Shown in pieces: positions 49,455-55,482 of a DNA stretch of 64,000 bases. The notes under the pieces are model-generated. The model ran no database searches and was not told the origin of the DNA. It worked only from the letters and a program-made list of their open reading frames with translations. Position 1 is the first letter of the stretch, and every line of letters starts with the position of its first letter. The stretch is from Flavobacteriaceae bacterium YJPT1-3. GTDB lineage: Bacteria > Bacteroidota > Bacteroidia > Flavobacteriales > Flavobacteriaceae. The DNA lies in NCBI GenBank assembly GCA_029866965.1, contig CP123444.1:723501-787500 (forward strand). Reading direction: 5' to 3'. The translations under genes were made by a program, and so were the position numbers.

Positions 49455-49462
49455 TATATTTG
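49455..49462 (+). promoter_or_regulatory. Promoter box of asnS
   Basis: TATATTTG matches TAnnTTTG and lies 27 bases before the ATG at 49490. The TTG at 49460 falls in the box and is not a start. Confidence 0.6.
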
Positions 49463-49489
49463 CCCCACTTTACGCATAATTTTGATCTC

Positions 49490-50932
49490 ATGAAGCAAGA
49501 ACAGATTGTCGACATTCTACAAAGCGAGCAACTTCATCGTACACTGACGGTTAAAGGGTGGGTACGTTCTTTTCGAGCGAATCGATTTATTGCCTTAAAT
49601 GATGGCTCCACCTTGCAAAATTTGCAATGTGTAGTCGATTTTGAGCATACGGATGAACGTATCCTAAAGCGCATTACCGTAGGAGCTGCTATTGCCGTGA
49701 CCGGAGAATTGGTGGAGTCGCAAGGAGCGGGACAGCGGGTCGAACTGACGGTTGCCGAAGTGGAAATTCTAGGGGATGCTGATCCTGAAGAGGTCAAAAA
49801 AACCATACTGCAGCCCAAGCGACACAGTTTAGAAAAACTACGCGAGCAAGCGCATTTACGCGTACGTACGAATACCTTTGGAGCCATCATGCGATTGCGC
49901 TCTAAGTTGGCATTTGCCGTACATGAATACTTCAACAACAATGGTTTTTACTACGTACATACTCCGGTGATCACCGGCAGTGATGCCGAAGGAGCCGGTG
50001 AAATGTTTCGCGTAAGCTCGTTGGATCCCAAGGCCATTCCATTGGATGAGCAAGGTAACGTAGATTATAAAAAAGACTTCTTTGGTAAAGAGACCAACCT
50101 TACCGTTTCTGGTCAGTTGGAAGCAGAGACTTATGCCCTGGGTTTAGGCCAGGTATATACCTTTGGCCCCACCTTTAGAGCAGAGAACTCCAATACTTCC
50201 CGCCATTTGGCAGAGTTCTGGATGATCGAGCCGGAGGTGGCCTTTTGTGATCTGGACGGCAATATGGACCTGGCCGAAGATTTCATCAAATATGTGATCA
50301 ATTATATCTTGGAAAACTGCCAGGAAGATCTGGAATTTCTCGAGCAACGCCTGGAGCAGGAAGATAAAGCCAAGCCTCAGGCCGAACGCTCCCCAATGGT
50401 ACTCCGCGAGAAATTGAGATTTGTAGTGGAGAACAACTTTAAGCGGGTGAGCTATACCGAAGCCATTGAGATTCTACGTAATTCCAAACCCAACAAAAAG
50501 AAAAAATTCAATTACCTCATTGAGGAATGGGGCGCCGATCTACAAAGTGAACATGAGCGCTATCTGGTCGAAAAGCACTTCAATGCTCCGGTCATCTTGT
50601 TTGACTATCCGGCCAATATCAAGGCTTTTTATATGCGGTTAAACGAAGATGGCAAGACGGTGCGCGCCATGGATATTCTCTTTCCGGGCATAGGCGAAAT
50701 CGTAGGTGGTTCCCAACGGGAAGAACGATTGGAAGTCCTGCAGGAGAAAATGAAAGCCCTCGACATTTCAGAAGAAGAACTGTGGTGGTATTTGGACACG
50801 CGTCGCTTTGGAACTTGCGTCCATAGTGGCTTTGGTCTGGGCTTCGAACGCCTGGTCCTATTTGCTACCGGCATGAGCAATATTCGCGATGTCATTCCGT
50901 ATCCGCGTACACCACAGAACGCGTCTTTTTAG
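49490..50932 (+). CDS. asnS: Asparaginyl-tRNA synthetase
   Basis: This class IIb synthetase charges tRNA-Asn with asparagine. In 480 residues it has an N-terminal OB-fold anticodon-binding domain (VKGWVRSFRANRFIALNDG) and a class II catalytic domain. The latter has motif 2 FRAENSNTSRHLAEFWMIEPE and motif 3 GFGLGFERLVLF. Its tripeptide HTPVITGSDAEGAGEMF in the active site matches the AsnRS type and not AspRS. It has its own promoter box and terminator. Confidence 0.97.
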   Translation: MKQEQIVDILQSEQLHRTLTVKGWVRSFRANRFIALNDGSTLQNLQCVVDFEHTDERILKRITVGAAIAVTGELVESQGAGQRVELTVAEVEILGDADPEEVKKTILQPKRHSLEKLREQAHLRVRTNTFGAIMRLRSKLAFAVHEYFNNNGFYYVHTPVITGSDAEGAGEMFRVSSLDPKAIPLDEQGNVDYKKDFFGKETNLTVSGQLEAETYALGLGQVYTFGPTFRAENSNTSRHLAEFWMIEPEVAFCDLDGNMDLAEDFIKYVINYILENCQEDLEFLEQRLEQEDKAKPQAERSPMVLREKLRFVVENNFKRVSYTEAIEILRNSKPNKKKKFNYLIEEWGADLQSEHERYLVEKHFNAPVILFDYPANIKAFYMRLNEDGKTVRAMDILFPGIGEIVGGSQREERLEVLQEKMKALDISEEELWWYLDTRRFGTCVHSGFGLGFERLVLFATGMSNIRDVIPYPRTPQNASF

Positions 50933-50960
50933 GGCTTCAAAATTTAGAGAACACATTCAA

Positions 50961-50996
50961 AAGCCACCGGTTTGCAGTAGTCTCCGGTGGCTTTTG
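50961..50996 (+). terminator. Terminator after asnS
   Basis: A 10-bp stem AAGCCACCGG (50961-50970) with CCGGTGGCTT (50984-50993), a 13-base loop, then TT. Confidence 0.85.
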
Positions 50997-51102
50997 CGTT
51001 AATTAACCTGAGCAAAAGGGGGTAAACCCCCCTAATTCTGGGGAGGATTTTTAATTGATTTCAAATTGAGTTACTTTAACAGTCTAATCAACACCATTGA
51101 TC

Positions 51103-51774
51103 ATGAAAATCATCAAAACCCTTTTCGCTCTTGTTTTTATGAGCGTTGCCTTCCTGGCTTGTGAGCAGGCCAAACCTCATGAGGAGGAGCACATGGAAAA
51201 ACCTGTCGATCCGCCTACACAAATAATCCCCGTTGAGGACGCTGAGATACTGGCACAAGATTATCGCAGAAATCGCATTCCACTCATCGAAGAATTCCAG
51301 AATAGGGATGACAACGGAGAGCCCATTGATCCGGAGGATCCGGAATACGTACGAGCCACCCAAGCGTTAACCGTGGATTTTGAAACGCTGAAAACCTATA
51401 TTACCTATATCGAGCAACAGGCGGATTCGGCCAAAATAAACATTAGCGGATTGCGCATTTATCTAGGGAAGTATCCCAATGCGGGTAAATTTCCGGACGG
51501 ACGCCCGGTGAAATATCCCAATGCAGAAACGGTGTTCTTAAATCCGGTTGCTCCTTTTGAGAACGCCCAGGGCCAAATGAGTGAGTCCGGTTTTGCGATC
51601 GTCACCAACCCGGATGGCACCAAAAAAGCGGTACCCGTTGGACAATTGTTGAATAAAAATATGAAAGGAAATGGACCGCCATACGTCCTAATGTTTCAGG
51701 ATGATGTGACGGATCTTTCTTTTAATGACATGAATAAAATTCCGCCACCTCAACAAAACGACAATGACTTTTAA
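51103..51774 (+). CDS. Lipoprotein of unknown function
   Basis: A 223-residue predicted lipoprotein. The ATG at 51103 begins a signal peptide (MKIIKTLFALVFMSVAFLA) with the lipobox cysteine next. The mature protein is charged and Pro/Asp-rich, with segments such as GEPIDPEDPEYVRATQALTVD and SGLRIYLGKYPNAGK. No known domain was recognised. It starts a cluster with a membrane protein, a histidine kinase and a response regulator (26-base gap to the next gene). This suggests a sensory or accessory role, but that is context only. Confidence 0.72.
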   Translation: MKIIKTLFALVFMSVAFLACEQAKPHEEEHMEKPVDPPTQIIPVEDAEILAQDYRRNRIPLIEEFQNRDDNGEPIDPEDPEYVRATQALTVDFETLKTYITYIEQQADSAKINISGLRIYLGKYPNAGKFPDGRPVKYPNAETVFLNPVAPFENAQGQMSESGFAIVTNPDGTKKAVPVGQLLNKNMKGNGPPYVLMFQDDVTDLSFNDMNKIPPPQQNDNDF

Positions 51775-51799
51775 AAAATAAGGTAAGGGCATAAGGAAA

Positions 51800-52456
51800 A
51801 TGGAAATCTACAGAGATTTTGTCATTCTATTTGAGTTTATGCCCGCCCTATTTGGTTTAATTTATTGGAAAAAAGTTAAGGACAACATCTTATTAAAATG
51901 GTTTGTCATTCTGCTGTGGTATACGGCACTTAATGAACACGTCGCTTCGTACTATGGAAATTATATTTCAGAAGAGAAGAACAACATACTTTTTTATACG
52001 GTTAAAGGGTTGTTATCCTATATCTTCTATTTTATCTTATTTCTGACTGCCCTTAAGCGACGAGCAAGTAAAATAGTAATATCCGTACTCTTCGGAACTT
52101 ACCTGATGGTCTCCGTAATTGAATTTACGCAGACTAATATTTTATTAGAAGATCAGACCTTTTCAGAGTATACAGGAAGCGTATTATTGATCATCGCAAT
52201 ACTCTATTACTTTGTGGAGTTGATTGTTTATCAAGGGATCGTAAATCTCAAAGAAAATATTCTGGTCTACATTAGTTCTGGATTACTTCTGTTTGAAGTG
52301 GGAATGATACCTATTGGTATTGCCAGAACTATCTTTTTAGATCAACGTGGACCGTTTTGGCAACCATTAACAATCTATCAAGGAATTATTATTTTATTAA
52401 TGAATTTATTATTTACAGCCGGCTTTATATGGGGCAGGAAGAAATCAGAAATTTAA
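51800..52456 (+). CDS. Multi-pass membrane protein next to a histidine kinase
   Basis: A 218-residue integral membrane protein with about seven hydrophobic segments spread over the whole length and almost no soluble loops. No family was recognised. Its 3' end overlaps the kinase start (52429) by 28 bases in another frame, so translation is probably coupled. It may be the sensor partner of a kinase that itself has only one membrane segment. Confidence 0.75.
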   Translation: MEIYRDFVILFEFMPALFGLIYWKKVKDNILLKWFVILLWYTALNEHVASYYGNYISEEKNNILFYTVKGLLSYIFYFILFLTALKRRASKIVISVLFGTYLMVSVIEFTQTNILLEDQTFSEYTGSVLLIIAILYYFVELIVYQGIVNLKENILVYISSGLLLFEVGMIPIGIARTIFLDQRGPFWQPLTIYQGIIILLMNLLFTAGFIWGRKKSEI

Positions 52457-53196
52457 TTTTTTTAGCAGCGGTGACGCTTTTACTTTTTGCGGTGATTTTT
52501 TTCATCCTGTTTGCTGCATTTATTAAACGCAAAAACAGCCTGGTTTTAGAACAACAAGAGGCCGAAAAGCGTTATGAGCGATTGATCGCAGAAACACAAA
52601 TCGAAATTCGTGAGGAAACCTTGCGGAATATCAGTTGGGAATTGCACGATAATATTGGTCAGTTATTGACTCTGGCTAAGATCAAAGCCCAAAATATCAT
52701 AGGAGGAGATGAAGCCATGATGGAGGTATCAGAAACTATTGGGAAAGGGTTGAACGAACTAAGGGCTTTGTCTAAATCCATCAATCCTGAGGCGATAAAG
52801 AACCTGTCACTACATCACTCGGTGCGCCAGGAGGTGGAGCGTTTTAATCGATTACAGTTTCTCGAGGCATCACTGCAGATTGAAGGAGAACCCCGAGTAT
52901 TGGATGATAAGGTCGAAGTGGTACTGTTTAGGATCTTACAGGAATTCTTTACCAACACCATCAAGCACTCCAAGGCCAGTGCCCTAGAAGTACTTTTAAA
53001 CTACACCCCCGATCATTTAGAAATTACAGCCAAAGACAATGGAATTGGGTTTACACCTGCTGCAGAAGGAGCGCGGGGAATTGGTCTGGGAAATATGAAA
53101 AAAAGAGGAGAATTGATCCAGGCTGATATCACCATCACTTCTACCGCCGATGTAGGCACCGCCCTTCGTATTCATTATAAATATCCGGAATTATGA
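52429..53196 (+). CDS. Sensor histidine kinase (HisKA_3/NarL-type)
   Basis: A 255-residue kinase. One membrane segment (9-31) is followed by a short coiled region and a HisKA_3 domain with the phosphorylated His 73 in WELHDNIGQ. The ATPase domain has FTNTIKHSKAS (N box), DNGIGFTP (G1) and GIGLGNMKKR (G2). It has no sizeable sensory domain of its own. The ATG at 52429 was chosen because it leaves the membrane segment directly at the N-terminus. The stop overlaps the next start (ATGA), so the kinase and regulator are coupled. Confidence 0.93.
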   Translation: MGQEEIRNLIFLAAVTLLLFAVIFFILFAAFIKRKNSLVLEQQEAEKRYERLIAETQIEIREETLRNISWELHDNIGQLLTLAKIKAQNIIGGDEAMMEVSETIGKGLNELRALSKSINPEAIKNLSLHHSVRQEVERFNRLQFLEASLQIEGEPRVLDDKVEVVLFRILQEFFTNTIKHSKASALEVLLNYTPDHLEITAKDNGIGFTPAAEGARGIGLGNMKKRGELIQADITITSTADVGTALRIHYKYPEL

Positions 53197-53831
53197 AAAC
53201 TCAAGTAGCTGTTGTTGATGACCATACCTTGCTCTCTGAAGCCATTGCTGGCCTGGTCAACCAATTCGAAGATTTTGAAGTCTATGCCGTTTGCAAGAAC
53301 GGTCAGGAACTACTGAACCTCCTAAAAGAGCGGGATACCGTACCGGATATTGTATTGATGGATGTGAATATGCCGGTCATGGACGGTATTGAAACGACGG
53401 TTCATCTTAAGGAAGATTATCCCGACATCAAGGTCTTGGCCCTGTCCATTGAAGAAGATGAACGTATCATCCTTAAAATGCTACGTGCGGGGGCTCGTGG
53501 TTACCTCATGAAGGACACTCAAAAATCCGTTTTGGAGAACGCCTTAAAGGAGTTGATGAGTCAAGGCTACTACCATACCAATACCGTGACTGAATTATTG
53601 GTGAATTCGTTGAATAAAAAGGACACGCCGGAAACTACCTTGAAAGAACGCGAAATTGAATTTATAGGCCACGCCTGTACCGAAATGACCTACCGCGAAA
53701 TCGCCGACGTGATGTTTCTCAGTCCGAAGACCATCGAAGGCTACCGAGACAGCATCTTTCAAAAACTCAACCTGAAGAACCGGACCGGCCTGGTTATCTA
53801 CGCCATTAAAAATGGGCTCTTTGTGCCTTAA
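53193..53831 (+). CDS. LuxR/NarL family response regulator
   Basis: A 212-residue regulator with a receiver domain (1-120) and a LuxR-type helix-turn-helix (about 145-210). The acidic pocket is Asp 9-Asp 10, the phosphoacceptor is Asp 57 in VLMDVNMP, and the conserved Lys lies in YLMKDTQ. The DNA-binding domain reads LKEREIEFIGHACTEMTYREIA and SPKTIEGYRDSIFQKL. It forms a two-component pair with the overlapping kinase gene. The target genes are unknown. Confidence 0.95.
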   Translation: MKTQVAVVDDHTLLSEAIAGLVNQFEDFEVYAVCKNGQELLNLLKERDTVPDIVLMDVNMPVMDGIETTVHLKEDYPDIKVLALSIEEDERIILKMLRAGARGYLMKDTQKSVLENALKELMSQGYYHTNTVTELLVNSLNKKDTPETTLKEREIEFIGHACTEMTYREIADVMFLSPKTIEGYRDSIFQKLNLKNRTGLVIYAIKNGLFVP

Positions 53832-54027: not shown

Positions 54028-55482
54028 ATGCTAAAACAACAACTCAATTTTAAACTCTCGCAGAAACTGTCTCCGCAGCAGATTCAGCTCATGAAGTTGA
54101 TTCAGTTGCCTACGCAGGAATTTGAGCAGCGTTTAAAACAGGAGTTGGAAGAAAATCCCGCTTTGGATAGCGGGAAAGAAGAGATCAAAGACGATTTTGA
54201 TGAATTTTCTAATACGGAGGACGATGATTACGGCAACGACACTATTGAGACCGAGATCAATGTGGATGACTACCTGAGTGATGATGAGATTCCCAGCTAT
54301 CGCTTAAATGCCAACAATTACAGTGCTGACGATGAGGAACGACAAATTCCTTATGCCTCCGGCACGACCTTCCATCAAACCCTAAAGACTCAACTCAATA
54401 CCTATCGATTGAGTGAAACCGAGCGAGAGATCGCTGAGTTTCTGATCGGTAGCCTGGACGAAAGCGGCTATTTGAGACGAGCCATAGATGATATCGTGGA
54501 TGATCTGGCGTTTACGCAAAATGTTTACACCGAAGCAGAGGTAGTAGAACGGATGCTTAAAATAGTCCAGCAACTCGATCCTGCCGGCGTCGGAGCCCGC
54601 AGTTTAGAGGAATGCCTGCTCTTGCAATTAGAACGCAAGACACCAACCGCATCCATCAGTCTGGCCATCGATATACTTGATCAGGCTTTCGATCATTTTA
54701 GCAAGAAACACTATAAAAAACTGATCAGTAAATTCGACATTACGGAAGATCAGTTGCGGGATGCTATTGAAGAAATTGAAAATCTAAATCCCAAGCCCGG
54801 CGGATCATTTGCAGGAAACACCCGTATGGTGGAACACGTGGTTCCCGACTTTACCATCCGTATCGTGGATGGCGAACTGGAGCTCACTCTGAATGGTAGA
54901 AACGCCCCTGAACTCCACGTTTCCAGAGAATACAGCAATATGTTGAAAGGCTATAAGGCCGCTAAAGAAAAAAGTAAGGCGCAAAAAGACGCAGTACTTT
55001 TTATCAAACAGAAACTGGACGCTGCCAAGTGGTTTATTGATGCCATCCGGCAACGTCAGCAAACGCTATTCGTGACCATGAGCTCCATCATGAACTACCA
55101 AAAAGAGTATTTTCTGACCGGAGATGAGCGCAATCTACGCCCCATGATCCTGAAAGATATTGCGGATGAAATTGATATGGATGTGAGCACCGTCTCCAGG
55201 GTAGCGAACTCCAAGTATGTGGATACGCCCTACGGTACGAAGCTGATCAAAGAATTCTTTAGCGAAAGCATGACCAATGACCAGGGAGAAGAGGTCTCCA
55301 CGCGGGAGATCAAGAAGATACTCGAAACCGTGGTGGAAGAAGAAGACAAGCGTAAACCGCTGACTGACGATAAATTGGCCAAAATCTTAAAAGAAAAAGG
55401 GTATCCCATCGCGCGCCGAACCGTCGCTAAATACCGGGAGCAACTCGATCTTCCTGTGGCCCGACTGCGTAAAAAGATCTGA
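54028..55482 (+). CDS. rpoN: RNA polymerase sigma-54 factor RpoN
   Basis: Sigma-54 directs RNA polymerase to -24/-12 promoters that need AAA+ activators. The 484 residues include region I (LSPQQIQLMKLIQLPTQEFEQRLKQELEENP), an acidic region II, the core-binding domain (ELHVSREYSNML and AKWFIDAIRQRQQTL) and the RpoN box ARRTVAKYREQL close to the C-terminus. It overlaps the next gene by one base. Confidence 0.97.
   Translation: MLKQQLNFKLSQKLSPQQIQLMKLIQLPTQEFEQRLKQELEENPALDSGKEEIKDDFDEFSNTEDDDYGNDTIETEINVDDYLSDDEIPSYRLNANNYSADDEERQIPYASGTTFHQTLKTQLNTYRLSETEREIAEFLIGSLDESGYLRRAIDDIVDDLAFTQNVYTEAEVVERMLKIVQQLDPAGVGARSLEECLLLQLERKTPTASISLAIDILDQAFDHFSKKHYKKLISKFDITEDQLRDAIEEIENLNPKPGGSFAGNTRMVEHVVPDFTIRIVDGELELTLNGRNAPELHVSREYSNMLKGYKAAKEKSKAQKDAVLFIKQKLDAAKWFIDAIRQRQQTLFVTMSSIMNYQKEYFLTGDERNLRPMILKDIADEIDMDVSTVSRVANSKYVDTPYGTKLIKEFFSESMTNDQGEEVSTREIKKILETVVEEEDKRKPLTDDKLAKILKEKGYPIARRTVAKYREQLDLPVARLRKKI

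Follow-up and report, generated by a model that had tools for sequence, protein, structure and literature searches.

A conserved operon of a lipoprotein, a seven-helix membrane protein, a minimal histidine kinase and a NarL-type regulator in Flavobacteriaceae: a candidate four-part signalling unit

A 64,000-nucleotide stretch of the genome of Flavobacteriaceae bacterium YJPT1-3 (contig CP123444.1, positions 723,501 to 787,500; hereafter the window) contains a tight four-gene operon, all on the plus strand, which encodes a lipoprotein (LIPO), a seven-helix membrane protein (7TM), a minimal histidine kinase (HK) and a NarL-type response regulator (RR). The gene arrangement is not a chance one, because it recurs throughout the family and outside it. 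The minimal kinase depends near-obligately on the LIPO-7TM pair and the pair does not depend on the kinase; the same pair is also found with a second kinase type, and an inverted repeat upstream of the operon tracks with the regulator gene. We consider it probable, with some reserve, that the four proteins make up one signalling unit in which sensing and catalysis reside on separate chains and the receptor acts in trans. A search of open-licence papers returned none that we recognised as describing a LIPO-7TM-HK-RR module.

Distribution and gene orders

We surveyed one genome per genus of the family, 199 in all, using open reading frames (ORFs) from our own ORF caller and profiles built for this analysis. 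The LIPO profile has matches in 121 of these genomes and the 7TM profile in 114, while the minimal-kinase profile gives 129 matches in 98 genomes. Profiles were needed because the window 7TM sequence, as a single query, reached only 57 genomes; a related-locus search with this protein as sole query found nothing. LIPO precedes 7TM in all 60 loci of the first set and in all 80 of the third, and in 50 loci found by LIPO alone 7TM follows every time, kinase and regulator in 17. Among the matches listed, 118 of 150 LIPO places have a listed 7TM less than 600 bp downstream. A search of the phylum produced 20 loci, each with LIPO, 7TM and kinase; 14 of them belong to further families within the order or class, and one more locus (L255; L and G numbers are our handles for loci and genomes) also comes from the order.

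After removal of duplicates there are 210 units, 8 of which reach the end of a stretch. Ninety have the complete order LIPO-TM-HK-RR (TM being the 7TM gene), which bears out the conserved neighbourhood of lipoprotein, membrane protein and NarL-type kinase pair that a preliminary description of the window had suggested looking for. The others are 55 LIPO-TM, 41 LIPO-TM-HK, 6 LIPO-TM-LytS-LytTR, 1 LIPO-TM-LytS, 4 LIPO and 13 of rarer orders. These loci were selected by a match to LIPO or 7TM, and the kinase search described below is the less biased direction. In 23 of the 41 LIPO-TM-HK units the neighbours are genes that we take to be panB-like. The LytS-type kinase with a LytTR-type regulator stands behind LIPO-TM at L078, L086, L155, L177, L190 and L243 (this last locus belonging to a different family within the order), and without such a regulator at L059; these types were read from the sequences, by motifs that we presume to be those of LytS and LytTR.

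Kinase, regulator and their dependence on the pair

Over the Pfam cut-offs, HK matches HisKA_3 and HATPase_c and no other family, and RR matches Response_reg and GerE and no other, so that the domains of the HisKA_3/NarL class are all present (HisKA_3 with its conserved His, HATPase_c, receiver and GerE). The HK sequence begins with about 8 residues followed by one hydrophobic segment; judging from charge, its N-terminus would be periplasmic. This agrees with the first description of the kinase as having one membrane helix, and no sensor domain is visible. His73, present in 139 of 139 sequences, is likely the phospho-acceptor. The subfamily is sharply bounded, all 129 matches scoring at least 162 bits in ORFs of 253-305 aa, and the window's genome, a single contig of 3.16 Mb, holds one such kinase (410 bits, the next match 26.6). 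Identity to the window protein is 53-57% in 8 HK relatives as against 20-35% in 48 LIPO and 18-32% in 49 7TM relatives, and for this reason the sensors appear to have diverged while the output was kept.

When the search starts from the kinase, 117 of the 129 are preceded by a listed 7TM at no more than 400 bp or by a listed LIPO at no more than 4.5 kb, and 9 of the remaining 12 also have one or both upstream (L053, L060, L295-L299, L302, L304; at L297 and L299 the contig ends and only 7TM is seen, and at L304 the 7TM match is weak, 26.9 bits). LIPO and/or 7TM therefore stand upstream of 126 of the 129, and 123 of 142 7TM/HK junctions are overlapping. These counts, and the seven units in which the same pair is joined to a LytS-type kinase, six of them with a LytTR-type regulator, agree with the earlier view of the genes as one module.

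What the earlier description had named as speaking against a module is indeed seen, the pair being without the kinase in 55 of 210 units, though 51 of these lie at one kind of place: they adjoin genes that are presumably rho-like or rpsT-like, neighbours found for none of the 41 LIPO-TM-HK units and for 1 of the 90 complete ones. Two of the four kinase-less units elsewhere are cut by a contig end. Because of this shared setting, the kinase-less pair looks like one vertically inherited lineage, not like repeated independence. Fourteen of 15 genomes with a kinase-less pair have no kinase of the minimal class, and in the remaining one (G129) it sits in a second, complete operon; with that true member set aside, the best score in the 15 genomes is 118 bits, mostly in frames of at least 600 aa.

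Three observations at single places may be added. The rho/rpsT-adjoining pairs (e.g. L102, L103, L105, L137) include those of Maribacter, Arenibacter, Cellulophaga and Zobellia. At L303:4018-6393, module-type HK and RR genes lie behind a gene for an MscS-type mechanosensitive channel, which occupies the place of LIPO-7TM and is possibly a partner swap. At L295:4034-5955, a 78-aa kinase-like fragment (35 bits) separates the 7TM gene from a complete kinase of like type.

The LIPO protein

Neither LIPO nor 7TM of the window matches a Pfam or NCBIfam family over the cut-off, in keeping with the earlier failure to recognise a family for either. The same libraries gave only scattered weak matches for 44 LIPO and 50 7TM proteins scanned one by one, the commonest for 7TM being DUF6768 (19 of 50, best E 0.00012), and the LIPO and 7TM profiles found nothing at E 0.1 among solved structures. 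One LIPO relative of the 44 matched BSAP5b (E 0.00049).

The window LIPO has a lipobox-type start, VAFLAC with Cys20, as befits the lipoprotein it was first called. Its predicted structure contains a small α/β domain (predicted local distance difference test score, pLDDT, 84.4; predicted template modelling score, pTM, 0.70), for which comparison with the PDB gave no match (best Foldseek E 0.25; best Z 2.8); this is no proof of a new fold. Conserved residues include R118, Y120 and P148, and in the C-terminal tail N208 and P214 are invariant in 49 sequences. Of 211 LIPO proteins, 190 have a Pro-Pro pair among their last 25 residues, as against 79 of 1583 other, unlabelled ORFs.

Export classes were assigned by a simple hydrophobicity rule in two versions. 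The second gives 118 proteins with a lipobox, 48 with an anchor and 45 with neither, of 211; the first gave 116, 57 and 47 of 220 and had put L052, L054 and L062 in the anchor class and L214 in the class without signal, although all four look lipoprotein-like. The signal-less forms are mostly found in regulator-bearing operons, and 40 of the 45 have the Pro-Pro tail, which is as common in them as in the others. With some 45 of 211 partners apparently not exported, LIPO cannot face the same side of 7TM everywhere, and ligand capture by the lipoprotein, as at first suggested, cannot on these assigned classes be general. It is chiefly this result that speaks against ligand capture, and against any one docking face.

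The 7TM protein

The window 7TM is predicted with confidence as a seven-helix bundle (pLDDT 90.7, pTM 0.88), with long helices at residues 2-21, 30-55, 59-84, 88-111, 120-144, 154-178 and 187-211; the model agrees with the early description of a protein made almost entirely of membrane helices. The distribution of Lys and Arg fits a predicted topology with the N-terminus outside and the C-terminus inside, the same whether the neighbouring LIPO has a lipobox, an anchor or no signal: the summed means are, respectively, 13.1, 12.0 and 12.2 for the would-be cytoplasmic segments and 5.1, 7.0 and 5.6 for the outer ones.

A Foldseek search with the model found nothing significant (best E 0.47). In the 50 rows listed by VIA-align, which were drawn from Foldseek's own list, the chains are of the G-protein-coupled receptor (GPCR) or rhodopsin type or belong to a designed GPCR-like fold (Z 10.7-12.6, 186-209 of 218 residues aligned, root-mean-square deviation 3.7-4.9); a Z below about 13 may reflect no more than a common bundle, and the likeness of the predicted fold to GPCRs and rhodopsins is suggestive only. 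The most conserved residues include P171, Y202, G126, N62 and F156, and by our own mapping helices 2 and 3 bear the polar residues E46, N62 and N67 in their outer halves.

At some loci several 7TM copies follow one another between LIPO and HK, as many as four at L171 (G049); L150, L151, L172 and L173 are further examples, and such tandems could add inputs to one kinase.

An inverted repeat as candidate operator

The upstream regions of regulator-bearing operons carry AGGGG-N4-7-CCCCT-like inverted repeats. We defined a strict repeat as GGGG-N2-7-CCCC within 250 bp upstream and a relaxed one as GGG-N3-9-CCC. The strict repeat precedes 30 of 90 LIPO-TM-HK-RR units, 1 of 55 LIPO-TM units (L116, on a cut contig) and none of 41 LIPO-TM-HK units, the figure for control ORFs being 15 of 1172; the relaxed repeat precedes 54 of the 90 complete units as against 151 of the 1172 controls. 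In the one-per-genus sample, the strict repeat is found for 21 of 63 HK-RR units, where the reversed pattern occurs once, and for 0 of 83 others (0 of 45 with the kinase and no regulator, 0 of 32 without kinase, 0 of 6 with LytS). The repeat is likely an autoregulatory site of RR. Throughout the window's genome a tighter pattern has 16 sites, compared with 3 for the reversed control; some resemble tRNA arms or lie inside ORFs, one is in a cluster of curlin repeats and one precedes a secreted-looking protein. Among 104 further intergenic cases are many sequences beside rpsT that resemble a tRNA T-arm, which we presume them to be.

A terminator of the upstream gene was rejected as the general reading of the repeat: 12 of 32 sites have divergent genes on their two sides (counting as neighbours ORFs of 100 aa or more, in some cases several hundred bases distant), and asnS, upstream of the window's operon, has a stem of its own. 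Some co-directional repeats followed by T-runs could double as terminators.

Of 48 HK-RR genomes, one of which (G057) has HK-RR without the pair, 23 contain curlin repeats (PF07012), as against 18 of 151 others (odds ratio 6.8, Fisher p 5e-7, a statistic that ignores phylogeny). By class, they occur in 6 of 50 genomes with the kinase and no regulator, 2 of 24 with the pair and no kinase and 10 of 77 with nothing listed, the classes being taken from the fetched loci and the matches listed, three by hand. This 199-genome count supersedes a comparison of hand-picked genomes (18 of 26 vs 3 of 26). Among 19 curlin regions from module genomes (L372-L390), the strict repeat is present in four (L372, L381, L385, L388), always intergenic and near curlin genes at varying distance. 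A surface-fibre or adhesin regulon of RR is a correlative lead only, and the repeat is not supported as a general curli operator, most curlin genes being without it.

Individual loci are of interest here. In the window's genome (G000:C1:1749711-1756182, L372), four curlin-repeat genes stand in tandem with one AGGGG-N6-CCCCT site between. At L031 and at L036/L108/L109 the fetched stretch contains a curlin-like gene besides the module. At L031, L042 and L045, from three genera, the operon and a divergent gene have the intergenic region and the repeat in common; the product of that gene, ~675 aa long, carries a type IX secretion tail.

Interpretation

In the arrangement that we favour, 7TM would be the receptor, placed in the inner membrane with its N-terminus out and C-terminus in, and the LIPO domain, here that of a periplasmic lipoprotein, would act as its co-receptor or gate, perhaps docking via the conserved C-terminal tail. 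The state of LIPO-7TM would be passed within the membrane to the one-helix kinase that lacks a sensor of its own; HK would phosphorylate RR, and RR would bind the AGGGG-N4-7-CCCCT-like repeats, foremost the one ahead of its own operon.

Several results weigh against this scheme. Three kinases (L300, L301, L303) stand without the pair; the 55 kinase-less units (a contig end cuts 5 of these) and the 41 LIPO-TM-HK units without an adjacent regulator leave the order of signal flow unfixed by synteny. The simple rule finds no export signal in about 45 of 211 LIPO partners, and in the anchored-LIPO class the outer segment 2-3 of 7TM (2.98 Lys+Arg) exceeds two inner ones. The fold matches of 7TM are under the level trusted for helical bundles, and mean-field direct coupling analysis of LIPO and 7TM found no enrichment for the outer half of 7TM, with 166 pairs, too few for a decisive result. 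Two thirds of the regulator-bearing units are without the strict repeat, and in the window the bare pattern is no rarer than chance.

The strongest rival, which we think unlikely and yet in need of serious attention, is that LIPO and 7TM form an envelope complex (for transport, lipid or fibre assembly) that is regulated by the kinase pair, which would have stayed next to it on that account, or a LiaF-like brake. LIPO-TM units standing alone, 51 of the 55 at one kind of place, are in its favour, as are LIPO forms without an export signal and the tandem 7TM copies, up to four at L171, which suit assembly or transport. It accounts less well for a kinase that has no visible sensor domain and yet is accompanied by the pair in 126 of 129 cases, for the overlap of 7TM and HK genes (123 of 142), and for the combination of the pair with two kinase types. 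A brake is a variant of the same physical coupling as in the receptor scheme.

Improbable, in our judgement, is a role in cell-cell communication, with LIPO or its tail as a released peptide signal and 7TM as its exporter, processor or receptor. The Pro-Pro pair near the LIPO C-terminus would fit it, and so would the likeness to agr-type gene order, in which a small membrane protein is followed by kinase and regulator; the tail, however, is equally common in forms without an export signal, and the folded LIPO domain is conserved as well. That an ordinary two-component system merely shares its transcript with two unrelated genes can be given hardly any credence: HK and RR by themselves do make an ordinary HisKA_3/NarL pair, but LIPO-TM-HK-RR recurs in 90 of 210 units and in other families of the order and class.

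The receptor scheme can be extended, tentatively and with more doubt than belief, to a portable cartridge: a stand-alone GPCR-like 7TM with a lipoprotein co-receptor, which might plug into sensor-less kinases of the HisKA_3/NarL or LytS/LytTR kind, gain inputs by tandem duplication, accept its co-receptor on either membrane face and, when of the NarL form, control the cell surface (curli-type fibres and a protein secreted by the type IX secretion system) through AGGGG-N4-7-CCCCT operators. Annotation usually comes to a halt at sensor-less kinases; here the kinase subfamily of about half the sampled genera (98 of 199 genomes) gains a candidate sensor, built from two protein families absent from Pfam and NCBIfam as searched. 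If the coupling is true, these bacteria offer a natural case of receptor and kinase acting in trans, the outputs being exchangeable, together with an operator that can be put to the test and a first clue to the stimuli they sense.

Genomic setting

The features are collected in Table 1; the names of the two flanking genes, asnS-like and rpoN-like, are those that we presume from their sequences. From the LIPO stop to the 7TM ATG we count 25 bases, not the 26 given at first; the overlaps of 28 bases (7TM/HK) and 4 bases (HK/RR) stand.

Table 1. Features of the operon and its surroundings, in window coordinates
Feature	Description	Position	Strand
LIPO	lipoprotein, 223 aa, lipobox Cys20; unnamed α/β domain and conserved Asn...Pro tail	51103..51774	+
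LIPO C-terminal tail	residues 204-215, conserved Asn208 and Pro214	51712..51747	+
7TM	seven-helix membrane protein, 218 aa, predicted N-out/C-in by charge	51800..52456	+
HK	minimal histidine kinase, one N-terminal helix, HisKA_3 + HATPase_c	52429..53196	+
RR	NarL-type response regulator, receiver + GerE	53193..53831	+
Inverted repeat	AGGGGGTAAACCCCCCT, ends 69 bases before LIPO start; candidate operator of the cognate regulator	51017..51033	.
Terminator-like stem	after asnS, distinct from the candidate operator: AAAGCCACCGG ... CCGGTGGCTTTT (read from the sequence)	50960..50995	+
asnS-like gene	upstream neighbour, outside the module	49460..50932	+
rpoN-like gene	downstream neighbour, outside the module	54028..55482	+

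Comparison with known systems

In the QseG-QseE-QseF system an accessory outer-membrane lipoprotein activates the histidine kinase, is encoded beside the kinase and regulator genes, as is LIPO, and acts via its C-terminal domain, bridging the outer envelope to the cytoplasm, which we also count as a likeness (PMC12691602). QseG, however, binds the kinase itself (PMC12691602), whereas the kinase discussed here has no visible periplasmic domain and 7TM would stand in between. QseF is described as acting at sigma-54-dependent promoters (PMC6075780); RR, by contrast, consists of a receiver and a NarL-type GerE domain, with no sigma-54 interaction family among its Pfam matches.

BtsS of the BtsS/BtsR system is a LytS-type 7TM receptor kinase, with seven helices and a periplasmic N-terminus as the sensing part (PMC10653868), which resembles the topology predicted for our 7TM; the LytS/LytTR output is likewise one output type among the module units. 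BtsS carries both 7TM and kinase on one chain (PMC10653868), whereas here they are in separate open frames, with LIPO in addition. None of the membrane families 7TMR-DISM and LytS/5TMR is among the Pfam matches of the 50 7TM proteins at E ≤ 0.1.

LiaFSR has an accessory membrane protein with a kinase and a regulator (PMC3543457), encoded in the operon as 7TM is. Seven helices, a lipoprotein partner and another phylum set our module apart from LiaFSR and VraTSR, and no LiaF-type family is among the Pfam or NCBIfam matches of the window 7TM or of the 50 members scanned. Both LiaFSR and VraTSR have a minimal kinase and a NarL-type regulator, of classes like those of HK and RR.

In UhpABC, a multi-pass membrane receptor acts in trans on a kinase and a NarL-type regulator, and UhpB is the best NCBIfam match of HK (93.4 bits, cut-off 408). 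UhpC is a transporter-type protein, unlike the window 7TM with its seven helices and no transporter family over the Pfam or NCBIfam cut-off, and LIPO is without counterpart in that system. The RcsF-IgaA-RcsCDB system combines an outer-membrane lipoprotein, a multi-pass inner-membrane protein and a phosphorelay to a NarL-type regulator; it is a hybrid phosphorelay, its genes are not in one operon, and its protein families differ from those of the module. Each of QseG-QseE, BtsS, LiaFSR and UhpABC fails at least one of the defining features examined, and we class the module as an accessory-protein two-component system of its own composition, two of its families being unnamed in the libraries searched.

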